NCBI GenBank assembly: GCA_947631325.1
Contig: CANRKX010000009.1
Span: 1-47,315, forward strand
Direction: 5' to 3'
Length of the DNA: 47,315 bases
From: an uncultured Clostridia bacterium
GTDB taxonomy: Bacteria > Bacillota > Clostridia > Christensenellales > Borkfalkiaceae
Under the pieces are notes generated by a model, which worked only from the letters and a program-made list of their open reading frames with translations, was not told the origin of the DNA and made no database searches. Positions 17,825-28,848 of the stretch are shown piece by piece (within the stretch, counting starts at the first letter, position 1; the number at the start of each line of letters is the position of its first letter). A program made the translations under genes and the position numbers.

Positions 17825-18409
17825 TTACTTCTTGAAGGGCATTCCGAGCGCCCTTAAGAGTTCTCTTGCTTCCTCGTCGGTCTTTGCCGTCGTGACTATG
17901 CAGATATCCATGCCCCTTATCTTTTCGACCTGATCGTACTGGATTTCGGGGAATATGAGCTGTTCCTTGACGCCCATACAGTAGTTGCCCTTGCCGTCAA
18001 AACTCTCGGAAGGGACGCCGCGGAAGTCGCGCACCCTCGGCAGGGCGATGGAGACGAGCTTATCGTAAAAGTCGTACATCATCTTGCCGCGGAGAGTTAC
18101 CTTTATGCCGACGTTCATGCCCTCGCGCACCTTGAAGTTCGCAACCGACTTCTTTGCCTTGGTGAGGATGGGCTGCTGCCCGCATATCTGCTTTATCTCG
18201 TTCTGCGCCGTCTGTATGGATTTTGCGTTGTCCTTTATATCTCCCAAGCCCGAGCTTATGACTATCTTGACGAGTTTGGGGACCTGCATGGGGTTGGTGT
18301 AGCCGAATTTTGCGGTGAGCGCGGGTACGGCTTGCTTGTCATAGAGTTCCAAAACCCTCGACTTATACGTCTTTTCCGCGTTTTGCGCGGTCTTTTTAGC
18401 GGTAGCCAT
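17825..18409 (-). CDS. rplE: 50S ribosomal protein L5
   Basis: L5 binds 5S rRNA and contacts the P-site tRNA. 194 aa, slightly longer than the usual 180 owing to an N-terminal Ala/Lys-rich extension ([14 protein letters not shown]). Conserved parts are [34 protein letters not shown], and the [19 protein letters not shown] terminus. Confidence 0.97.
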
Positions 18410-18420
18410 CGTGCGCCTCC

Positions 18421-18846
18421 TTATTCAGCCTTGTCGCCGTCGGTCGACGCCGCGGCTTCTTCTTTCTTGGCGCGCTTTCTGACGCGCTTCTTGGGTTCTT
18501 CCTTCTTGGCGTTCTTTGCCGCCTTGCCCGAATATGCCTTGTCGAGCACGGCGCCGCACTTGGGGCAGACGCGCACCTTTTTGCCGTCCGTCACAAGATG
18601 CTTGACCCTAACGGGCTTGTCGCACGAGCCGCATACGACCATTACGTTGGAGACGTCGATGGGGGCGGGAATCTCGACAATTTCGGAGACTTCGTTCGCC
18701 TTTCTCGCCTTCTTGGATTTCTTGTGGATATTCACTCCCTCGACGGTTACGGTATTGTTCTTGGGAGAAGTGGATATTACCTTGCCCTGTTTGCCCGCGT
18801 ACTTTCCCGTAATGACGAGCACGTTATCGTTCAATTTTACGTTCAT
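18421..18846 (-). CDS. rplX: 50S ribosomal protein L24 with zinc-ribbon and basic tail
   Basis: L24 initiates large-subunit assembly. 141 aa. The KOW domain is at 1-50 ([20 protein letters not shown]). A four-Cys ribbon follows (CGSC and CPKC, about 68-98), seen in some Firmicutes L24. The last 30 residues are a low-complexity Lys/Glu/Ala tail ([20 protein letters not shown]) not typical of the family, which makes the protein longer than the usual 100-110 aa. Confidence 0.96.
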
Positions 18847-18862
18847 GGCAGTTCTCCTTTAA

Positions 18863-19231
18863 TCACAATACCTCGGGGGCGAGCGAGATTATCTTCATGT
18901 AGTTCTTCTCGCGAAGTTCCCTTGCTATCGGTCCGAAAATGCGCGTTCCGCGCGGGTCTTTGTTTGCGTTTATTATTACTGCGGCGTTGTCGTCGAAGGT
19001 GATATACGTTCCGTCGTCACGCCTGATGCCCTTGGTGCTGCGGACGATTACCGCCTTGACGACCTCGCCCTTCTTTACGGCGCCGCCGGGGGCTGCCGTC
19101 TTTACAGAACATACGATGACGTCGCCGATGTTGGCGTACTTTCTCCACGAACCGCCGAGCACCTTGATGCACATGAGCTCTTTCGCGCCGCTGTTGTCTG
19201 CCGCCTTGAGCCTTGTCTGTGGCTGTATCAT
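18863..19231 (-). CDS. rplN: 50S ribosomal protein L14
   Basis: L14 forms an intersubunit bridge and is where ribosomal silencing factor docks. 122 aa, textbook sequence: [19 protein letters not shown] at the start, [17 protein letters not shown], and the end [19 protein letters not shown] 146-base gap separates it from rpsQ upstream. Confidence 0.98.
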
Positions 19232-19266
19232 AAATCTAACTCCTTTTTGATTTGAACTTACAACTT

Positions 19267-19282
19267 TGCGCCCTTGGGCGCA
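19267..19282 (-). promoter_or_regulatory. Perfect inverted repeat in the rpsQ-rplN gap
   Basis: TGCGCCC-TT-GGGCGCA, a perfect 7-bp inverted repeat with almost no loop, in the 146-base spacer between rpsQ and rplN. Most other spacers of this operon are below 20 bases. No T run follows. It may be an RNA-processing or protein-binding hairpin; the role is not evident. Confidence 0.35.
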
Positions 19283-19377
19283 CGTTCAGAGGATTGCGCC
19301 GACCGCACATAAACCGGGTGGGTCGCCCGATTCTCCTTTGCGATCGATTTGCAATCATGACGTCTTGATATGGGCGA

Positions 19378-19635
19378 TTACTTCGCCTTTTCGATTATCT
19401 CGGCAACGCGCCAATTTTTGGACTTGGAAAACTTCCTCGTCTCGACGATGCGGACGGTATCGCCCTCGCCGCACTCGTTCTTTTCGTCGTGCGCCTTGAA
19501 TTTGGTGGTCTTTGTTATGGTCTTTTTGTAGAGGGGATGCTTGGATTTTTCGGTGACGGCGACGACGACGGTCTTATCCATCTTGTCGGACACTACTATT
19601 CCCACTCTTTCCTTGCGTAAGGTAGTTCTTTCCAT
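19378..19635 (-). CDS. rpsQ: 30S ribosomal protein S17
   Basis: S17 binds the 5' domain of 16S rRNA through an OB-fold. 85 aa: [20 protein letters not shown] at the N-terminus, [20 protein letters not shown] and [20 protein letters not shown] are diagnostic. Follows rpmC. Confidence 0.97.
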
Positions 19636-19648
19636 TTCTTTGCTCCTT

Positions 19649-19843
19649 TTACGACTTCAACTCGCGTGCGCGGATGACTGTGTTCACCCTTGCGATATCC
19701 TTCTTGACGAGGTTTATCGACAGGGGGTTATCGAGCTGCCCGCTCGCGTGGCGGAAGCGGAGGTTGAAGAGCTCCGTCTTGAGCTCCTGAAGCTTCTTCA
19801 AAAGCTCTTCGTCGGATAAATTGACAATTTCTTTAGCCTTCAT
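19649..19843 (-). CDS. rpmC: 50S ribosomal protein L29
   Basis: L29 lies at the exit tunnel near the trigger-factor docking site. The ATG at 19843 gives 64 aa beginning [18 protein letters not shown], with the signature [21 protein letters not shown] three codons upstream would add MRQ, but the purine-rich AAGGTGAGG stretch fits as SD site only for the ATG. The start overlaps the rplP stop by 11 bases. Confidence 0.94.
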
Positions 19844-20264
19844 TTGCCTCACCTTCTTCTTCTTTCTTGACGAAACGGCACTTTATGGGGAGTTTGTGGC
19901 TTGCAAGACGCATTGCCTCCCTCGCGACGTCCTCGGGGACGCCCGCCATTTCAAACATTACCCTGCCGGGCTTTACAGTTGCAACCCAATACTCTACCGA
20001 GCCCTTGCCCGAGCCCATACGGGCTTCGGCGGGGTGACGGGTGATGGGCTTGTGCGGGAATATGTCTATCCATACCTGACCGCCGCGCTTTATAAATCTC
20101 GTCATTGCGATACGCGCCGCCTCTATCTGGTTGGACTTTATCCAGCCGCACTCTTCGGCGACGAGTCCGTATTCGCCGTAGGCAACCTTGTTGCCCTTCT
20201 GCGCAGCGCCGTGCAACTTGCCGCGGTGCTGCTTTCTTCTTTTAACTCTCTTGGGCATCAACAT
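19833..20264 (-). CDS. rplP: 50S ribosomal protein L16
   Basis: L16 organises the A-site region of the large subunit. 143 aa: [16 protein letters not shown] at the start, [20 protein letters not shown] and [20 protein letters not shown] are diagnostic. A Glu-rich end (EEEGEANEG) is specific to this copy. It starts three bases after rpsC; a GGAGG lies about 15 bases upstream, rather far. Confidence 0.97.
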
Positions 20265-20267
20265 GGT

Positions 20268-20939
20268 TTATTCTTCGCCTCCCTCGGAAATGATGAGCTT
20301 TTTAGCCCTGTCGAGCACTTCGCCCTTGTATATCCAGCACTTGACGCCGAGTACGCCGAAAGTGGTGTGCGCTTCCGCAAAGCCGTAATCGATGTCCGCG
20401 CGGATGGTCTGAAGGGGAATGGAGCCCTCGTGATAGCTTTCGCATCCCGCGATTTCCCTGCCGTCGAGCCTGCCGCCGACGGTTATCTTGACGCCCTTGA
20501 CGCCCGTCTTGGATACCTTTGCTATCTGCTGCTTTACAGCCCTTCTGTAGGACACGCGCTTTTCGAGTTGAGCCGCAACCGACTCGGCGACGAGCTGCGC
20601 GTCCTGATCTATCTTGTCTATCTTTCTTACGTTGATGATGATAACCTTGCCCTTGGTGAGCTTCGCAAGAGACTTCTTTATCACCTCTATCTCGCTGCCC
20701 GCCTTGCCGATGAGAACGCCGGGACGACCGGTGTATATTCCCACCTCAATCTTGTTTGCGGCGCGGACGATGGTTATCTTGCTTATAGCCGCGTCATAGT
20801 ACTTCTTTTTAAGGAAAGCGCGGATGTCGGCGTCCTCTTTGAGGTGCGCGGAAAAGTCCTTTTTGTCAGCGTACCACTGGGTGTCCCATGCGGAAATTAT
20901 GCCGACCCTTAAACCGTGAGGATTAACTTTTTGTCCCAT
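20268..20939 (-). CDS. rpsC: 30S ribosomal protein S3
   Basis: S3 lines the mRNA entry tunnel. The protein from the ATG at 20939 is 223 aa and starts MGQKVNPHGLRVGIISAWDT, the standard start; the much longer open frame to 21176 is a read-through of antisense-like codons within rplV and is rejected. KH domain with GRPGVLIGKAGSEIEVIKK, C-terminal part with GGRLDGREIAGCESYHEG. Confidence 0.97.
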   Translation of the reverse strand: MGQKVNPHGLRVGIISAWDTQWYADKKDFSAHLKEDADIRAFLKKKYYDAAISKITIVRAANKIEVGIYTGRPGVLIGKAGSEIEVIKKSLAKLTKGKVIIINVRKIDKIDQDAQLVAESVAAQLEKRVSYRRAVKQQIAKVSKTGVKGVKITVGGRLDGREIAGCESYHEGSIPLQTIRADIDYGFAEAHTTFGVLGVKCWIYKGEVLDRAKKLIISEGGEE

Positions 20940-20950
20940 ATGTTCTCTCC

Positions 20951-21340
20951 TTAAATCTTCTTCGCGTCGAGTATGACGGTGACGTGACTCGTTCTCTTCA
21001 AAATGGCGTGACCGCGGCCCTTGGATACGGGCTGCATCCTCTTTAAATGGGGACCGCCGTCCGCAAAGGCTTCGGCGACGATGAGGTCGCCCCTGTCCAT
21101 GCCGTTGTTGTGTTCGGCGTTCGCAGCCGCGCTCAAAAGCACCTTTTTGACTTCGTCGCTGCCGCCCTTGTCGCAATAGGTGAGAATGGCTTCGGCCTCC
21201 TCGACGCTCTTGCCCCTTATGAGGGCGAGGACTGTTCTTATCTTGTAGGGGGATATCCTCAGATACTTTGCGGTGGCATAAGGACGCTTGTCTTTATTTG
21301 CGGCAATCTTTTCTGCCTTTTTATTCATATTGCTTGCCAT
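20951..21340 (-). CDS. rplV: 50S ribosomal protein L22
   Basis: L22 forms the constriction of the exit tunnel. 129 aa, with a 17-residue Lys/Ala-rich N-terminal addition before ATAKYLRISPYKIRTVLALI. The tunnel loop and end read RMQPVSKGRGHAILKRTSHV. Macrolide-resistance-associated loop residues look ordinary. Confidence 0.97.
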   Translation of the reverse strand: MASNMNKKAEKIAANKDKRPYATAKYLRISPYKIRTVLALIRGKSVEEAEAILTYCDKGGSDEVKKVLLSAAANAEHNNGMDRGDLIVAEAFADGGPHLKRMQPVSKGRGHAILKRTSHVTVILDAKKI

Positions 21341-21350
21341 ATGTCCCTCC

Positions 21351-21626
21351 TTACTTCTTAGCCGCAGTCTTTGCCGCGTGACCCTTGAAGGTGCGCGTGG
21401 GGGCGAATTCGCCCAACTTGCAGCCGACCATGTCTTCGGTGATGTATACGGGCACGTGCTTTCTGCCGTCGTATACGGCGATAGTGTGACCCACCATCTG
21501 GGGGAATATTGTAGACGCGCGCGACCAGGTCTTGACGACCTTCTTTTCGCCGGCAGCGTTCATTGCCTCTATCCTTGCCATAAGTCTTTCTTCGGCGTAA
21601 GGACCTTTTTTAACGCTTCTTGACAT
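21351..21626 (-). CDS. rpsS: 30S ribosomal protein S19
   Basis: S19 contacts the A-site finger with S13. 91 aa: [40 protein letters not shown] and [19 protein letters not shown] are diagnostic. Located between rplB and rplV. Confidence 0.98.
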
Positions 21627-21639
21627 CTTCTATTCCTCC

Positions 21640-22467
21640 TTAATTGATTCTCTTCAAAATGAACTTGGAAGTGGGATTCTTCTTCTTTCTCGTCTTATAG
21701 CCGAGAGCGGGCTTGCCCCAAGGGGTCATAGGACCTGCGTGACCTACGGGGCTCTTGCCTTCGCCGCCGCCGTGAGGGTGGTCGTTGGGGTTCATGACCG
21801 AACCGCGGACGGTGGGACGGGTGCCGAGATATCTCGTTTTGCCCGCCTTGCCGAGCTTGATTATCTCATGCTCGACGTTGCTGACCTGACCTACCGTTGC
21901 CCTGCACTTCAAGGAGACGAGACGCATTTCGCCCGAGGGCATTCTGAGCGTCGCATAGTCGCCCTCCTTTGCCATTATCTGCGCCGCGATGCCCGCAGAC
22001 CTTGCAATCTGCGCGCCCCTGCCGGGCTTGAGCTCTATGCAGTGGACGACCGTGCCGACGGGGATATCGGAGAGGGGAAGGCTGTTGCCCGCCTTTATGT
22101 CCGCGCCCGCGCCCGAGACCACTTTGTCGCCGACGTTCAAGCCGACGGGAGCGAGGATATACCTCTTTTCGCCGTCCGCATACGCAAGGAGAGCGATGTG
22201 AGCCGAACGGTTGGGGTCGTACTGAATGGACTTGACCGTTGCGGGAACTCCGTCCTTATTGCGCTTGAAATCTATAATTCTGTACTTTATTCTGTTGCCG
22301 CCGCCGATGTGACGAACGGTTATCTTGCCCTGATTGTTCCTGCCGCCCGTCTTGCGCTTGTCGTGTAAAAGCGCCCTCTCGGGCTTGTCGCCCGAAAGCT
22401 CGGTATAAGCGCTGACCGTCATGAAACGGCGTGCGGCGGAAGTGGGTTTATATCTTTTGACTGCCAT
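21640..22467 (-). CDS. rplB: 50S ribosomal protein L2
   Basis: L2 is needed for subunit association and peptidyl-transferase function. 275 aa, standard. Diagnostic are [18 protein letters not shown], the rRNA-contact loop [20 protein letters not shown] with the essential histidine (HPHGGG), and [20 protein letters not shown]. Confidence 0.98.
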
Positions 22468-22481
22468 CTTCTTGCGCCTCC

Positions 22482-22772
22482 TTATGATAACGAATCGAAG
22501 TATTCAATCGTCTTGGAGTCAGCCGTAAGCTGTACGATCGCCTTCTTGTAGTCGGGGGTGTAGCCCTCGTTTCTGCCCATTCTCTTCAACTTGCCCTTGC
22601 AGTTGACGGTGTTGACGCTTTCAACGCTGACGTTGAAGAGCTTTTCAACCGCCGCCTTAATCTGCCCTTTATTCGCCGACTTTTTGACGATGAACGTGTA
22701 CTTCTTGTCGGCAATTCCGTCGTAACCCTTTTCGGTCAAGAGGGGTTTTATAATTATATCTTCGGCAAACAT
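22482..22772 (-). CDS. rplW: 50S ribosomal protein L23
   Basis: L23 is the main docking site of trigger factor and SRP at the exit tunnel. 96 aa: [40 protein letters not shown] and [20 protein letters not shown]. Its ATG shares one base with the rplD stop (TAATG), so the two are translationally coupled. Confidence 0.97.
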
Positions 22773-23398
22773 TATTCTCCGTAGACCTCCTCTATTTTCT
22801 GTGCCGCAGCCTTTGTGAGAACGACTTTGGCGTTTGCGACCACTTCATACGTGGATATCTGCGCGACGGGAAGGGTGGATATCTTTTCGAGGTTGCGCGC
22901 GGCGAGAATGACCTTCTCGTCGGCGTTATCCATTACGAACACCGCGCTCTTTAAAAGTCCGAGAGCGGAAGCTATCTTTGCCATCTCCTTTGTCTTGCCG
23001 CTCTCTACCTCGAGCTTTTCGACAATGACGAGCTCGCCGTCGGCGACCTTCTTGGAGAGGGCGGATTTAAGCGCCTCAGCCTTGGCTTTCTTATTCATGG
23101 ATTTGGAGAAATCGCGGCTCTTGGGGGCGAAAACCACGCCGCCCTTGACCCACTGGGGAGCCCTTATGGAACCCTGACGGGCGTTGCCCGTACCCTTCTG
23201 TCTCCACGGCTTTCTGCCGCCGCCCCTTACTTCCGTGCGGGTGAGGGTGGACTTGGTGCCCTGCCTTTCGTTGGCAAGACGGGTCACGATCGCCTGATGG
23301 ATCAAGGGCTCGTTGTATTCAGCGCCGAATACGCTGTCGCTCAATTTCATTTCGCCGGCTTCGCTGCCGTCGAGCTTATATACTTTTACGTTAGGCAT
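22772..23398 (-). CDS. rplD: 50S ribosomal protein L4
   Basis: L4 lines the exit tunnel and in E. coli represses its own S10 operon. 208 aa. The tunnel loop is readable as [20 protein letters not shown] followed by [20 protein letters not shown]. Since the S10 leader here has an internal terminator, L4 is a reasonable candidate autoregulator, by analogy only. Confidence 0.97.
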
Positions 23399-23409
23399 AA
23401 TTTCTCTCC

Positions 23410-24039
23410 TTATTTGACGGTGTCGTTTATGGTTACGACCGCGCCGTCGGGTCCCGGAACAGAGCCCTTTATAAGCAGGCAGTTCCTTGCGACGTCAACC
23501 CTGACGACCTCGAGGTTCTGTATGGTGACGTTTTCGACGCCGTACTGACCTGCGAGACGCTTGTTCTTAAACACCCTCGAGGGCGAGCTGTTCGCGCCCA
23601 TGGAACCCGGCTCCCTGTGTACGGGGCCTACGCCGTGAGTTTCCTTCAAGCGGTGCTGGTTCCACCTTTTGATGACGCCCGAAAAGCCGTGACCTTTGGA
23701 GACGCCGTGGACGTCAACCCTGTCGCCTGCGGCGAATACGTCCGCCTTGATTTCCTTGCCCACCTCGTATTCGGACGCGTTGTCCACACGGAATTCCTTG
23801 AGGACTTTGCAGGGCTTGACGCCCGCCTTTTTGAACTGTCCGAGTTCGGGCTTGGAAAGAGCCTTTTCCTTTGCTTCGTCAAAACCGAGCTTTAAGGCGG
23901 AATAACCGTCCTTTTCAACAGTCTTGATCTGCACTACGGGGCAGGGTCCCGCTTCGATGACGGTGACGGGTATTACCTTGCCCTCTGCCGTAAACACCTG
24001 CGTCATGCCTGCTTTACGGCCGATGATTGCTTTATTCAT
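23410..24039 (-). CDS. rplC: 50S ribosomal protein L3
   Basis: L3 is one of the first proteins to bind 23S rRNA and reaches the peptidyl-transferase centre. 209 aa: [40 protein letters not shown] and [20 protein letters not shown] are diagnostic. A strong SD site (GGAGGA) precedes the start. It is separated from rpsJ by 500 bases, filled by repeat block B, instead of the usual few bases. Confidence 0.97.
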
Positions 24040-24160
24040 CAGATAAAGTTCCTCCGTTTTAATTTATTTTCAGATACCGCGCCCCGCCGTTCCGCCGCAT
24101 TTTATCGTCGTCTGCGTTCGGTAGAGTATCATTTTGACGTTTATTATTATATATGGTATT

Positions 24161-24536
24161 GGGGGGGATTGTTTTGAATTGCCAACCGCATACCCGATGG
24201 GATATTTCGTCGTACCGCTGCGACAGCAGACTGCGCTCGACTTAGAAGTCTCGCTCCGCTCTGCCGTTTCCCAAAGGGAACCCTCGGCAGGGCAGCGGGC
24301 TTACGCCCTCGCGCAATATGACAGGTTGGGAGAAGCCGCTCTCCACTCTGCCAATCCTAAGCCGCGGTTCGGAGAAACGAGCGAGACAAGAAAAGCGAGC
24401 ATTGACAAGGGGAGTTTACTAAAACGTAAATGACCCGAAGGCAAGCGGAGCTTGACACAGTATCGCGACGTTTATACGAAGCGCGAAAGCGGGAGCGCGA
24501 CACAGTTATGCGACGCATATATGCGGCGCGCTCGGT
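24161..24536 (+). repeat. Mosaic repeat block B between rpsJ and rplC
   Basis: Starts with seven G, then the modules CCGCATACCCGATGGGATAT, CGCTCGACTTAGAAGTCTCG, a CTGCCGTTTCCCAAAGGGAA hairpin, GCGCAATATGACAGG, the AAGCCGCGGTTCGGAGAAAC module, the small stem-loop at 24415-24430, and two end palindromes in tandem (CACAGTATCGCGACGTTTAT at about 24457; CACAGTTATGCGACGCATAT at 24511). The last palindrome ends about four bases before the rpsJ stop codon. Orientation is the same as the other blocks. It interrupts the most conserved operon of the genome. Confidence 0.78.
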
Positions 24537-24539
24537 AGG

Positions 24540-24839
24540 TCAGAGCTTGATTTTAATATCAACCCCCGCAGGCAAATGGACGGTGTCCAAGAGCTTTGCA
24601 TTGGGCGTATATATATCGATAATCCTTTTATAGGTTCTCTGCTCGAACTGCTCGCGGCTGTCCTTATCTTTATGGGGCGAGCGGAGGATGGTGACTATCT
24701 CCCTCTCGGTGGGAAGGGGAATGGGTCCCGAAATCTTCGCGCCGCTCTTCTTCATCGTCTCGACAATTCTCTGTGCGGCGAGGTCGACGAGTTCGTGGTC
24801 GTATGCCGCCAATTTGATTCTGATTTTCTGTCCTGCCAT
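24540..24839 (-). CDS. rpsJ: 30S ribosomal protein S10
   Basis: S10 is a 30S head protein and, as NusE, a transcription antitermination factor. 99 aa: [40 protein letters not shown] and [14 protein letters not shown] are diagnostic; the end [13 protein letters not shown] matches the family. It is the first gene of the superoperon, 231 bases after the predicted transcription start, with SD site AAGGAG. Confidence 0.98.
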
Positions 24840-24902
24840 GGTTTCTCCTTTTTATACTAACTGAAAAATTATTTGCGTCAACTTATCCGTGTGTATCGCG
24901 GC

Positions 24903-25040
24903 TTCGGGCACTAAAAAAACACCGAAAAGGTGTTCAAAGTTCAAAAGCCACGGTTAGTCGCCCGGGTCATGCCCGAACATTTGTCAGCGTAAATTATCTG
25001 TTCCGCAGCTTTTTTGCGGGGTTTTGCAGTAACTTTACGC
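24903..25040 (-). ncRNA. Structured leader with internal terminator upstream of rpsJ (candidate attenuator)
   Basis: In the roughly 230-base rpsJ leader, reading along the minus strand: GCGTAAA (25040-25034) pairs with TTTACGC (24993-24987) and encloses a hairpin CCGCA / TGCGG. Then TTCGGGCA (24977-24970) can pair with TGCCCGAA (24910-24903), or instead fold locally as CGGG-CATGA-CCCG. Between these arms lies an intrinsic terminator, AACACC / GGTGTT with a 5-base loop and seven T (24913-24934). Competing pairings plus a terminator are the signs of a transcription attenuator. The ligand may be a ribosomal protein such as L4; this is inference. I cannot match it to a known ribosomal leader family by eye. 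Confidence 0.6.
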
Positions 25041-25076
25041 CTCAACCCATACGCACTTTTTCAAACACGCTTGACT

Positions 25077-25105
25077 ATTATATAAAATAAAAATTGCTCT
25101 GTCAA
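25077..25105 (-). promoter_or_regulatory. Promoter of the S10-spc-alpha superoperon
   Basis: Minus strand TTGACA, 17 bases, TATAAT, a full consensus. Predicted start is about 25070, giving a leader of about 230 bases before rpsJ. Confidence 0.92.
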
Positions 25106-25420
25106 ATGTTTTTAAGGGGTTTTTGGGGCTTTTTCGGTCATTTTTCGGCGATTTTTATCCACTTTTGCCCTATCTTTCGCCCTTCGACAGAAATTGTGCC
25201 GTTTTTTTGAAATCCGACACAAGATATTGGTCTTTTGAGCCGACGTTCGGGGCTTGCGGGGACGCTGTAATCCCCCAAAAAAATATCTATTAAATTTTCT
25301 TATGGACTTTTTGAAATGAAATATAACAGGCTTTTTTGAAAATATTTTACATTATTTTGGGTGAACAGGAGTGAAAATTTGTGAATTTTGCATTTTCCGA
25401 AAAAAATTTTTTTAAAGGGC

Positions 25421-25576
25421 AAAAAAAATGTGCTTTCAAACCGAAAGCACACTTGCCACTGTACTTCCGATTTGTCACCACACAAATTTTCGGATTAAAA
25501 CGTATTCTACGCGAAAAAAGTACACGAAGCCAAAATATAGCTGTCGCGAATAATACGTCTTAAATTTGTGTGGTGC
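25421..25576 (-). ncRNA. Candidate free-standing structured small RNA
   Basis: A minus-strand unit of about 155 bases with its own promoter (25581-25609) and terminator (25421-25451: 9-bp stem TGTGCTTTC / GAAAGCACA and eight T). The 5' half folds into one long hairpin: CACCACACAAATTT with AAATTTGTGTGGTG (14 bp), an asymmetric internal loop, ACGTATT with AATACGT (7 bp), then CGCGA with TCGCG (5 bp) and a large apical loop. The apical loop has TGTACTT, complementary to AAGTACA in the single-stranded tail (25466-25460), allowing a 7-bp pseudoknot. No coding frame with a start and SD site was found along it. No gene follows on the same strand before the S10 promoter, so it is not a simple riboswitch. 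I do not recognise the conserved cores of 6S, SRP, tmRNA or RNase P RNA. Confidence 0.72.
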
Positions 25577-25580
25577 TTAA

Positions 25581-25609
25581 TTTATAACATAAAAATATAC
25601 AAAAGTCAA
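25581..25609 (-). promoter_or_regulatory. Promoter of the candidate small RNA
   Basis: Minus strand TTGACT, 17 bases, TATAAA. The predicted transcription start (about 25574) coincides with the first bases of the long closing stem, as expected if the RNA begins with that stem. Confidence 0.8.
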
Positions 25610-25636
25610 CTTATATAAAAAATTTTTCAATTGCTA

Positions 25637-25665
25637 TTGAAAAAAGCGGGGGAATGATTTATAAT
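25637..25665 (+). promoter_or_regulatory. Promoter of the EF-G-like gene
   Basis: TTGAAA, 17 bases, TATAAT on the plus strand, about 33 bases of leader, then AAGGTGG as SD site and the ATG at 25705. Confidence 0.85.
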
Positions 25666-25704
25666 GATGGAAATAACTGCTTTTGCAGGATAAGGTGGAA
25701 AAAT

Positions 25705-27759
25705 ATGATTTTAGACTCGCGGAACATAAGAAATATCGCCGTCATCGGGCACAGCGGCGAGGGGAAAACCACCCTTTGCGAAGCCATGCTGTTCAACGGC
25801 GGGGCCATAGACAGAATGGGCTCGGTTGCGGCGGGAACGACCGTCACGGACTTCGACGATATCGAAAAACAAAAGGGGCTGTCAATTTACACGGCGGCGG
25901 CGTATTTAATATGGAAAGAAGTGAAAATCAACCTTCTGGACTGCCCCGGGTTTTACGACTTCGAGGGCGAGAGATACGAGGCGTTGGCGGCTTGCGGCGG
26001 CGCGGTCGTCGTGGTGGGCGCCAACGGAGCGCTGCCCATAGGCTGCGAGAGCGTGATAGATTACTGTCTAAAACTCAAAAAGCCGCTCGTCATATTCATA
26101 AACGGCATGGACAAGCCCAACGCCGACTATGCGGGGACGGTGAAAGCCATTGCCGAGAAGTACGCGGGCAAGATTGCGCCCATACAGATACCCATAATGC
26201 AGGACGGCAAGATGACGGGATACGTCAACTCCATTCAGGAGAGGGCTTATAAATTTTCCTCGACGGGGCGGACGGAGACAGATATACCCGAAAACCTAAA
26301 AGAACAGATGGCGGAGATGCAGGCAAAGCTGATGGAGACAGCCGCGGAGAACGACGATAGACTCCTTGACATATACTTCGAAGAGGGGAAGCTATCCAAA
26401 GACGACACCGTGCACGGAATAAGGAAGGGCATTGCCACGGGAACGGTCATTCCCGTCATGGCGGGCAGCGCGCTGTGCAACAGGGGAGTTATCAATCTTT
26501 TGGACGAGATAGTTCGCTATATGCCCACCGCAAACGAGAGACAGAACGTATACGCGACGGACGAGAACGCCGACGAACTCATAAATATAATATGTGAAGA
26601 GGACGCACCGCTTGCGGCGCAGGTCTTCAAGACGGCTTCCGACCCCTACACGGGCAAACTCAACTATATAAAGATATTCAGGGGGAGCATTAAGTCGGGC
26701 ATGACCGTCTACAACTCCTCGAAGGGACGCGAGGAGAGAATCGGGCAGATCTTCGTCATGCGCGGCAAGAAAGCCGAGCTTGTGAACGAGCTGACGGCGG
26801 GCGACATAGGCGCAGTAAACAAGCTTGCCGCAACCGACACGAACGACACGCTGTGCGCCGTGGGGACAAAGATTGTATTCGACCCCATACGCTTCCCCCG
26901 CCCCTCCCTTTCGCTTGCCGTCAACGCGGTGACAAAGGGCGACGAGGAGAAGATATTTGCGGGGCTTTCGAAGATGTGCGAGGAGGACTACACCTTCTCC
27001 GTCGAAAAGCGCGCCGAGACGGGCGAGATGATAATGAGCGGGCAGGGCGAGACCCATCTTGAAATACTCGCGAAAAAATTAAAGGCGAGATACGGAGTGG
27101 AAGTTTGCCTTTCAGAACCCGCCATACCCTACCGCGAGACGATACGCGCCGTGGCGAACGCCGAGGGCAAGCACAAGAAGCAGACGGGCGGACACGGGCA
27201 ATACGGACATTGCAAGGTGCGCTTCGAGCCGACGGAGCAGGAGTTTGAGTTCGTGGACGAAGTCGTCGGCGGCGCGGTGCCCAAACAGTATATACCCGCC
27301 GTCGAAAAGGGACTTAAAGAGTGCATGGTGCGGGGAGTTTTGGCGGGATATCCCGTGACGGGAGTCAAAGCCGTGCTGTACGACGGGAGCTATCATGACG
27401 TGGATTCGTCGGAGATGGCGTTCAAGGCGGCGGCGGCGCTCGCCTTCCGCGAGGGCATGAAGAACGCAAAACCCGTGCTTTTGGAGCCCGTTTTAAAGCT
27501 TAAAGCGGCGGTGCCCAACGAGTACCTCGGCGCGGTTATGGGAGATATTTCGAAGAGGCGCGGAAGAATTTCGGAGAGCCAGACAGAGGGCGAGACGACG
27601 ACGGTGATTGCCGAAGTGCCCCTTGCGGAGACGGCTAAATACGCCACCGATCTGCGCGCGATGACCCGCGGACAGGGCAAGTTCTCGACTGAGTTTTTAA
27701 GATACGAGGAAGTGCCGCCCCAGCTCGCGGAGAAGATAATAGCAAGCGCGAACCAATAA
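25705..27759 (+). CDS. EF-G-like translational GTPase (EF-G paralogue)
   Basis: 684-aa protein with the five-domain EF-G layout. The P-loop reads GHSGEGKTT (15-23) instead of the AHIDAGKTT of canonical EF-G, G3 is DCPG (79-82), and G4 reads NGMD (133-136) instead of NKMD, a substitution at the Lys that stacks on guanine. Later regions are conserved: KQTGGHGQYGHCKVRFEPTE and GGAVPKQYIPAVEKGLKE, and the domain IV-V end. It belongs to the EF-G-like group next to FusA rather than canonical FusA, and its function there is unsettled (some relatives act in recycling, in ribosome protection, or remain uncharacterised). The start at 25705 is chosen for its SD site; the frame is open from 25654. Terminator at 27851. 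Confidence 0.88.
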   Translation: MILDSRNIRNIAVIGHSGEGKTTLCEAMLFNGGAIDRMGSVAAGTTVTDFDDIEKQKGLSIYTAAAYLIWKEVKINLLDCPGFYDFEGERYEALAACGGAVVVVGANGALPIGCESVIDYCLKLKKPLVIFINGMDKPNADYAGTVKAIAEKYAGKIAPIQIPIMQDGKMTGYVNSIQERAYKFSSTGRTETDIPENLKEQMAEMQAKLMETAAENDDRLLDIYFEEGKLSKDDTVHGIRKGIATGTVIPVMAGSALCNRGVINLLDEIVRYMPTANERQNVYATDENADELINIICEEDAPLAAQVFKTASDPYTGKLNYIKIFRGSIKSGMTVYNSSKGREERIGQIFVMRGKKAELVNELTAGDIGAVNKLAATDTNDTLCAVGTKIVFDPIRFPRPSLSLAVNAVTKGDEEKIFAGLSKMCEEDYTFSVEKRAETGEMIMSGQGETHLEILAKKLKARYGVEVCLSEPAIPYRETIRAVANAEGKHKKQTGGHGQYGHCKVRFEPTEQEFEFVDEVVGGAVPKQYIPAVEKGLKECMVRGVLAGYPVTGVKAVLYDGSYHDVDSSEMAFKAAAALAFREGMKNAKPVLLEPVLKLKAAVPNEYLGAVMGDISKRRGRISESQTEGETTTVIAEVPLAETAKYATDLRAMTRGQGKFSTEFLRYEEVPPQLAEKIIASANQ

Positions 27760-27850
27760 CATAAAATAAAAAAATACCCGATAGTATTGCGGGCAAAGAA
27801 CTTAAAACCCGCAAAAAAATAAAGACGTTGCGGGTGACAAGATAATTTTA

Positions 27851-27888
27851 AAACCCGCAGGGCGGAAACTTACGCCCTGCGGGTTTTT
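27851..27888. terminator. Bidirectional terminator between the EF-G-like gene and the lipoprotein gene
   Basis: AAACCCGCAGGGCG / CGCCCTGCGGGTTTTT, 14-bp stem with an 8-base loop and T runs on both sides. Two weaker CCCG...GCGGG repeats (27777-27793 and 27808-27834) precede it, as if the stem had been partly copied. Confidence 0.9.
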
Positions 27889-27909
27889 CATTAAAAATTT
27901 AAATATATA

Positions 27910-28848
27910 TTAATATTTTGTAATCTTAACCGACCTTATCACTATCGCCGCCTTGGGCATGTGGAAGGTGGTCTCTATATCCTTATCCGCAGTCTCGGAA
28001 GAGAAGCTCTCGCGGCTGTCGACCGTGGCGGAGACGGAATAGGTCTGATCGGTGGTCGAGGTGCCGAAGTTTGTGGTCAGATAATCGCTGACGTCCTCAA
28101 CAAGTCTGTCGAGTTCGGAGACGTCGGACATCTTGCCGAATGTGCTGTACTTTTCGGAGCCTATACCCGAGGACTGGGAAATCTGAAGGGCGAGCACCGA
28201 GGTCGCGCAGTTGTACTTATAGTCGGCGTTAATTATCTGGTCGGAAGTCGGGGTGACATAGACCTTGTTCTTGCCGCTCTTGGCATAATAATAATATTTC
28301 AAAGTGCCATAGTCGGCGGAGAGCGCGCCGCTCGTTATTTCCTGCGAGATGTTGCTGTAAAATTCGCCCATCAAGGTTGGAAGAGCGTACTCCGAAGAGG
28401 TGACTTCCTCGTCCTTCTTCTCGTCGTAACCCAAGCGGCTGTACACCGACGGGGTGAGCTTGCCTGCGCTGAATAAATCGTAATATGCCGATTCCTTGGA
28501 AGTATCTTCGAGATACTGCGAGAAACTCTCGGTATTGGAGGATGAGCCGTATGCTTCGCCGTTGTAGGCGTACGCGCCCGAATACCAATCTGTGGTCGTG
28601 TAGTCGTGGACGATCATGTCGTCATAGAAGCCGCCGTCGGCAAGTTCGATGAAGTGGCGCACGGAATTGGGATACATATTCCTGTACAGGGTGTAGTCGA
28701 GCTCGTAAGTTTGGGAGTTGAACTCAACCGTTATCCTCGCCGAGGGGTGCGCCGTCTCTATCGTGCAGGCGGCGGAAAATGCCGTTGCCGCGACGACGCC
28801 CGCGAGAGCCGCGCCGAATATTAATTTTTTAAAGACGTTTTTTATCAT
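27910..28848 (-). CDS. Lipoprotein with divergent cyclophilin-like domain
   Basis: 312-aa exported lipoprotein. Signal peptide residues 1-28 end in a lipobox, AFSAAC, with Cys28 as lipidation site. Residues about 37-90 resemble the start of a cyclophilin-type peptidyl-prolyl isomerase: ITVEFNSQTYELDYTLYRN, then PNSVRHFIELADGGFYDDMI. The catalytic HRV of cyclophilins is replaced by HDY, and the later FxMQGGD-type stretch is not visible, so isomerase activity is doubtful. The remainder is Ser/Thr/Tyr-rich. Possible roles are extracytoplasmic folding or binding; not determined. Single-gene unit with own promoter and terminator. Confidence 0.75.
   Translation of the reverse strand: MIKNVFKKLIFGAALAGVVAATAFSAACTIETAHPSARITVEFNSQTYELDYTLYRNMYPNSVRHFIELADGGFYDDMIVHDYTTTDWYSGAYAYNGEAYGSSSNTESFSQYLEDTSKESAYYDLFSAGKLTPSVYSRLGYDEKKDEEVTSSEYALPTLMGEFYSNISQEITSGALSADYGTLKYYYYAKSGKNKVYVTPTSDQIINADYKYNCATSVLALQISQSSGIGSEKYSTFGKMSDVSELDRLVEDVSDYLTTNFGTSTTDQTYSVSATVDSRESFSSETADKDIETTFHMPKAAIVIRSVKITKY

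Follow-up and report, generated by a model that had tools for sequence, protein, structure and literature searches.

T-box leaders are multi-copy regulatory RNAs that choose between a terminator and an antiterminator, as the RNA class described here is predicted to do. A second point of comparison is provided by the c-di-GMP-I and c-di-GMP-II riboswitches of C. difficile. According to passages of PMC6366702, these act by terminator control, occur in several copies per genome and have surface adhesins among their targets. Parts of PMC10043782 put the number of orphan riboswitch candidates at about 100.

We studied a 47,315-nt stretch of DNA from an uncultured Clostridia bacterium of the family Borkfalkiaceae (hereafter the window), which carries a structured element on its minus strand. 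This element very probably belongs to a new class of cis-acting, riboswitch-like transcription attenuators that control mainly surface-protein genes, with the window copy having been orphaned.

Structure of the window copy

The promoter (TTGACT-17-TATAAA) matches the consensus at 10/12 positions, in agreement with the near-consensus promoter and 17-base spacing noted in an earlier sequence-only reading of this DNA. It is absent from our consensus scan because the scan requires a final T in the −10 box. Transcription is predicted to start at the foot of the closing stem P1, as was also proposed in that reading. Of the 14 bp ascribed to this stem, the minimum free energy (MFE) fold contains 13, and the remaining pair (25562 with 25489) can form as well. 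P2 is interrupted by a 3×3 internal loop. The pairing between loop and tail, described earlier as a 7-bp pseudoknot option, amounts here to 8 pairs, two of them G-U. The strong intrinsic terminator was recovered as well, as a hairpin with a U-tract.

The earlier reading lacked a competing antiterminator of 15 pairs, which is present in the MFE fold in place of the terminator. In the folding model, terminator and antiterminator are two mutually exclusive 3′ structures of the window RNA. The fold energy of this RNA is −58.6 kcal/mol, compared with −32.6 ± 3.7 for 200 shuffled sequences (z = −7.05, 0/200 as low). Covariance models of the class (see below) match positions 25576-25417 with 126.5 bits (R1) and 89 bits (R2). 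We found no convincing ORF in the element, in line with the earlier statement that neither strand offers one. In general, the computations confirmed that the promoter, closing stem, pseudoknot and terminator on the minus strand are real, and the description of a complete structured transcription unit without a gene stands.

Table 1. Positions of the element's parts and of the adjoining gene-less segment in the window
Feature	Position	Strand	Details
Promoter	25581..25609	-	−35 TTGACT (25609-25604), spacer 17 nt, −10 TATAAA (25586-25581)
Attenuator RNA	25421..25576	-	predicted transcript from about 25574 to U-tract 25428-25421
P1 5′ strand	25563..25575	-	MFE fold: 13 pairs with 25476-25488
P1 3′ strand	25476..25488	-	MFE fold
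P2 5′ strand	25544..25562	-	25562-25552 and 25548-25544, MFE fold
P2 3′ strand	25496..25514	-	25514-25510 and 25506-25496, MFE fold
Pseudoknot 5′ strand GUACUUUU	25516..25523	-	internal loop between P3 and P2; unpaired in MFE fold
Pseudoknot 3′ strand GGAAGUAC	25461..25468	-	tail 3′ of P1; also within antiterminator 5′ strand
Antiterminator 5′ strand	25460..25474	-	pairs with 25437-25451 (terminator 5′ arm and loop), −21.1 kcal/mol
Intrinsic terminator hairpin	25426..25454	-	followed by U-tract 25428-25421
Presumed deletion site	25326..25420	.	gene-less; genome G080 has an 800-aa lipoprotein gene there

Spread, covariation and predicted switching of the class

A DNA search of the genus returned a nearly full-length relative in genome G080, 80% identical to the window copy over 152 bases, and seven matches to the 3′ part, which turned out to be full-length on inspection. 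Covariance model R1 was built from nine sequences (the window copy, the G080 element and seven further genus relatives) and model R2 from 53. Scoring covered the best few candidates per genome, which makes the genome counts lower bounds. R1 (E ≤ 0.01) matched at least 48/93 genus genomes, with up to 9 matches per genome. R2 matched at least 190/301 family genomes in 13/18 genera (E ≤ 0.001) and at least 57/247 order genomes in 25/107 genera (E ≤ 1e-5). Of these 57, 41 lie outside the family, and by our own tally at least 14 families were matched.

Among the best few candidates per genome in a 249-genome sample of the phylum, no match was found beyond the window's own genome. A pattern scan of named genomes yielded 76 stretches titled uncultured Clostridia, Clostridia, Bacillota or Eubacteriales, most of them from the 'Lapin' series; R2 was run on 57 of the 76 and matched every one (57/57). 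Viral contigs gave one pattern match, which the covariance model did not confirm, and the reversed control pattern gave 0. The order and phylum counts suggest that the class is restricted to the order, which may be Christensenellales. Antisense model matches on several members (at most 43 bits) were discarded as products of the long palindromic stem.

The covariation check on relatives supports both the helices and the pseudoknot proposed earlier. In alignment A4 (53 sequences), 93.7% of cells are paired. Double changes occupy 490 cells, against 141 ± 12 after shuffling (0/500 shuffles as high), and slid controls do not exceed 109. Pairs changed on both sides number 13/15 in P1, 8/8 in P2 (that is, the modelled P2 pairs), 5/6 in P3, 3/8 in the pseudoknot and 8/9 in the terminator; A4 and A6 were fitted to the nested stems of the models, so these counts lean towards nested stems. 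The pseudoknot lies outside the structure of R1 and R2, and its helix is paired in 98.3% of A4 cells, with compensatory changes. Alignment A6, in which 58/83 rows come from loci chosen with a search pattern in which the pseudoknot is fixed, gave a similar result (683 double-change cells versus 203 in controls).

Compensating pseudoknot variants include GTATCTCT/AGAGATAC, GTACCTC/GAGGTAC, GTACTTTT/GGAAGTAC, GTATCTTC/GAAGATAC and GTATCCTT/GGGATAC, as well as GTGTTTC/GAAACAC in L083, judged by eye and one alignment column off. At least 7/8 pseudoknot pairs fall in the model columns for 83/93 copies of the genus alignment A5, and for 76/76 in A6, which come mostly from pattern-picked loci. The remaining 10/93 A5 copies have no pseudoknot in the model columns; some pair one or two columns off, and three (L130, L131, L142) show none even with shifted columns included. 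L130 and L131 may not be members of the class. In 20 chosen copies of other families, core and tail are again matched within each member: they pair with a mean of −18.1 kcal/mol, compared with −12.9 for swapped partners, and the longest exact match reaches at least 6 nt in 12/20 versus 23% of swaps. A lenient pseudoknot count (152/157, with its 146/152) was dropped, as the same search succeeds on 121/157 shuffled cores. We also rejected an outer stem over the U-tract (GTGCGG...CCGCAC) as a class feature: it is present in some copies, but over the class its mean length of 4.6 nt is little above the 4.0 in swapped and 3.7 in shuffled sequences.

Removing 17 rows with identical RNA from 176 match rows left 159 distinct copies, and two more without a parsable terminator were taken out to give 157. 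A promoter with at least 9/12 consensus matches precedes 125/157 copies, against 4.8% of shuffled sequences. Of these 125, 117 have the same distance of exactly 4 nt between the end of the −10 box and the model start. This fixed distance places the predicted transcription start at the base of P1.

The tail strand of the pseudoknot is also part of the antiterminator in 80/81 tested A5 copies and in 73/75 of A6. The coupling of terminator/antiterminator exclusivity to a pseudoknot strand that is expected of a riboswitch was found, then, in 80/81 A5 copies. With the terminator arm extended by 3 nt, the mean antiterminator energy is −18.0 kcal/mol versus −9.8 with shuffled tails; with the shorter arm it is −13.8, compared with −11.2 for swapped and −8.5 for shuffled tails. 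The terminator averages −15.9 kcal/mol (−15.8 in the shorter-arm set), and a rough search gave a mean of −8.5 for the pseudoknot. With the longer arm, the antiterminator is ahead of the terminator alone by 2.2 kcal/mol, and pseudoknot plus terminator are ahead of the antiterminator by 6.3 kcal/mol, all these energies ignoring the loop costs of the pseudoknot. With the shorter arm, the terminator alone would beat the antiterminator. In isolated segments of tail and terminator, the MFE structure is the antiterminator in 123/157 copies and the terminator in 34/157. The window copy is in close balance (pseudoknot −6.1 and terminator −14.3 versus antiterminator −21.1 kcal/mol).

These results allow us to propose the following mechanism. 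Transcription would begin at the base of P1, and P1, P2 and P3 would fold and leave exposed a conserved single strand, which is GUAUCUCUUUU in most copies. This strand could pair with the tail behind P1, making the tail unavailable as antiterminator. As long as the pseudoknot is held, the terminator would form and the downstream gene would be off. Where the pseudoknot is absent or lost, the tail would pair with the 5′ arm of the terminator, and read-through would switch on a gene that mostly encodes a surface protein. As pseudoknot and terminator together are favoured over the antiterminator, any factor stabilising the pseudoknot would turn the gene off, a direction that we infer from the modelled energies. 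The putative input that tunes the pseudoknot might be a small molecule, an ion or a protein.

The class has few conserved unpaired bases, chiefly GGCA and a U-run; many metabolite aptamers have more of them. This scarcity is consistent with control by an RNA-binding protein, such as an antiterminator protein or an envelope-stress regulator, in place of a small ligand. A general regulator of this kind would also fit unrelated genes that share mainly their surface location. We nevertheless regard protein control as rather unlikely, since the logic of pseudoknot and antiterminator is complete without a protein.

Downstream genes and the orphaned copy

We looked within 220 nt for downstream ORFs that have a Shine-Dalgarno-like motif and encode at least 40 aa. 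Such an ORF follows 147/159 distinct copies and is missing by this rule from 12/159. The element stands directly before an ORF in 8/8 of the nearest relatives, which speaks against its earlier description as a free-standing small RNA. For the class, position and covariation thus suggest a 5′ leader of controlled mRNAs, as in riboswitches, a placement that the window copy lacks.

A simple in-house rule for signal peptides or lipoboxes found signal-like N-termini in 114/147 downstream ORFs, compared with 58/310 control ORFs from the same loci, the controls being held to a longer minimum (at least 150 aa) and an ATG start. A suggested link to ribosome function does not agree with this predominance of exported proteins. 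Among the 33/147 ORFs without such an N-terminus, zinc-ribbon proteins account for 12 by eye; they are the largest non-signal target group (L076, L159, L164, L187, L193, L198, L203, L208 and others). Zinc or the condition of the envelope would be a conceivable common signal. A Pfam scan of 111 of 132 prepared proteins, over their first 330 residues at most, gave BspA-type LRR_5 repeats in 30, zinc-ribbon 1 in 10 and the Listeria-Bacteroides repeat in 6; nine proteins were omitted as seemingly short or wrongly started, and this set leans to clear genes. Of the 20 copies of other families, 10 lie before a lipoprotein-like start, 3 before a gene for a membrane protein, 1 before one for a zinc-ribbon protein and 4 before other genes; the remaining 2 have no ORF (one copy judged by eye).

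Tandem pairs of attenuators within 600 nt were seen in six cases (L092, L094, L099, L158, L160, L173), 33 to 312 nt apart. In L092 each copy has its own promoter, which suggests combined control. In L106 the lipoprotein-like ORF after the element is, by eye, broken by an early stop in the signal-peptide region, and may be a second orphaned or decaying target.

The window's own genome contains six copies by R2. Five of the six precede an exported-protein start (C60 and C42 before long ORFs, C20 before an ORF cut by the contig end, C1 and C48 as judged by eye); no such start follows the window copy. Between the S10 operon and the EF-G paralogue, G080 has an 800-aa lipoprotein gene and then the element. 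In the same interval, G072 has a lipoprotein gene of 1,223 aa, with no R1 match there among those listed. Window segments 25287-25325 and 25423-25574 align to sites about 2.6 kb apart in G080. The simplest reading of this synteny is that a lipoprotein gene between the terminator and the S10 promoter was lost and the switch kept, and we infer a loss in the window rather than a gain elsewhere. A tblastn search with 490 residues of the G080 protein (from L010) against window positions 18001-28000 revealed no credible relic of the gene, its one match (E 0.5) lying elsewhere. An approximately 40 bp block upstream of the S10 promoter (window 25287-25329) is conserved in G080 (85%) and G072 (93%) and adjoins the presumed deletion site.

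The window copy thus appears to be an orphan. We lean slightly towards regarding it as a decaying remnant with no present function, given that the gene that follows the element in G080 is missing here. Against this, its promoter, pseudoknot, antiterminator and terminator are intact and it is 80% identical to the G080 element over 152 bases, although such intactness would also fit a recent gene loss.

Within one sub-group, to which the window copy is related, the tail and the 3′ side of P1 are complementary to the first codons of the gene behind them. The match reaches at least 10 nt in 10/145 members, where swapped pairs lead one to expect 2.1, and it shows matched variants on both sides (GTGAC/GTCAC, GTAAC/GTTAC, GCGTGG/CCACGC). 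In L269, from another family, the leader complement covers, by eye, the stretch from the ribosome-binding site to the start codon. Such complementarity could act as a second lock on translation, as a feature of the sub-group and not of the whole class.

The same complementarity and its compensatory variants, the L269 case and the intact, gene-less state of the window copy could also be taken to mean that this copy is a free-standing, trans-acting sRNA, originally or since the gene loss, that pairs with mRNAs through its tail. We consider this improbable. The complement of the 13-mer ATTTGTCACCACA occurs exactly in the genome only at its own locus and once with 1 mismatch; sites with up to 2 mismatches number 20, near the 14 of the control, for the one 13-mer used. 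Additionally, the relatives are leaders of downstream genes and are not conserved as stand-alone RNAs. An orphaned cis-acting attenuator remains our preferred reading of the window copy.

The place between the S10 operon and the EF-G paralogue would then be the former place of the lipoprotein gene, and adjacency to translation genes is therefore probably incidental. The EF-G paralogue lies beside the element in the window and in G080 and about 21 kb away in G066. We rejected an autoregulatory ribosomal-protein leader: rpsJ lies about 580 nt beyond the element's terminator and has a consensus promoter of its own, and the class relatives precede other genes.

Three side observations concern the neighbouring genes. 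The S10 operon promoter is perfect (TTGACA-17-TATAAT, 25105-25077, minus strand). Its leader of about 240 nt (window 24840-25110, minus strand) looks conserved by eye in L033, L037, L045 and L048 and has no Rfam match in the window; it is possibly a ribosomal-protein autoregulatory leader. The EF-G-like protein (25654-27759) scores above the NCBIfam PRK12740.1-5 cut-off and just below the TIGR00484 EF-G cut-off, and a search with it matched 293/301 family genomes, ordinary EF-G included.

Comparison with known RNA classes

At the gathering threshold, Rfam 15 placed no family at the element in the window and 20 member loci; the sole match among the member loci was a 5S rRNA in L090, outside the element. 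Permissive searches gave weak matches far below threshold. Neither Rfam nor ARAGORN, run for tmRNA, supported 6S RNA, SRP RNA, RNase P RNA or tmRNA, which agrees with the absence of these cores in the sequence-only reading. The lysM-TM7 RNA (RF03005) resembles the class in being cis-regulatory and in a weak end-to-end match to L083 (24.2 bits). However, its threshold is 61.5, and L083 aligns mainly by the closing stem. A microRNA model scores nearly as well on L083, and we rejected this identity.

The topology and core of c-di-GMP riboswitches differ from those of the class. The two are alike, as far as passages of PMC6366702 describe the C. difficile riboswitches, in leader position, terminator control, multiple copies and surface-protein genes. 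This likeness of regulon and control is the argument for the class being a c-di-GMP riboswitch variant. It is very improbable all the same: no aptamer model of Rfam matched at the element, and by our own tally 26/48 RNA-bearing genus genomes have no GGDEF match, 19 of these 26 having a completeness of 90% or more and a contamination of 5% or less. Conversely, 18/45 genus genomes without an RNA match have GGDEF, by the same tally. Overall, c-di-GMP is an unlikely ligand.

The predicted architecture is that of a riboswitch with a putative input, and membership among riboswitches would depend on a ligand. Tentatively, and with somewhat less than even confidence, we propose a new riboswitch class that would tune, across the order, the surface proteome of uncultured gut Clostridia (lipoproteins, BspA-type repeat proteins and zinc-ribbon proteins) in response to a signal other than c-di-GMP. 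Part of it would carry a second lock, on translation, with a leader that complements either the ribosome-binding site or the beginning of the coding sequence. The genes share mainly their surface location, which suggests a signal that coordinates presentation to host and neighbours. What we describe is a multi-copy RNA class with strong covariation, including that of a pseudoknot, in a lineage known here from metagenome-assembled genomes alone. The RNA is short, carries a promoter of its own and would make a clear decision between read-through and stop, so the ligand question is directly testable.

The class is apparently an unrecorded one. We found no description of it in titles and abstracts of the open-access literature, a scope that leaves many RNA-discovery papers outside, and a word search of PMC2864571 returned no surface-protein terms. 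T-box leaders differ from the class, which has no Rfam match to them and whose first 25 downstream Pfam families include none related to tRNA. From the orphan riboswitch candidates the class differs in its lack of an Rfam 15 match and in preceding mostly exported-protein genes, with no recognisable metabolic pathway. What it shares with these candidates, as parts of PMC10043782 describe them, is a conserved structured leader with an expression platform and the lack of an assigned ligand.
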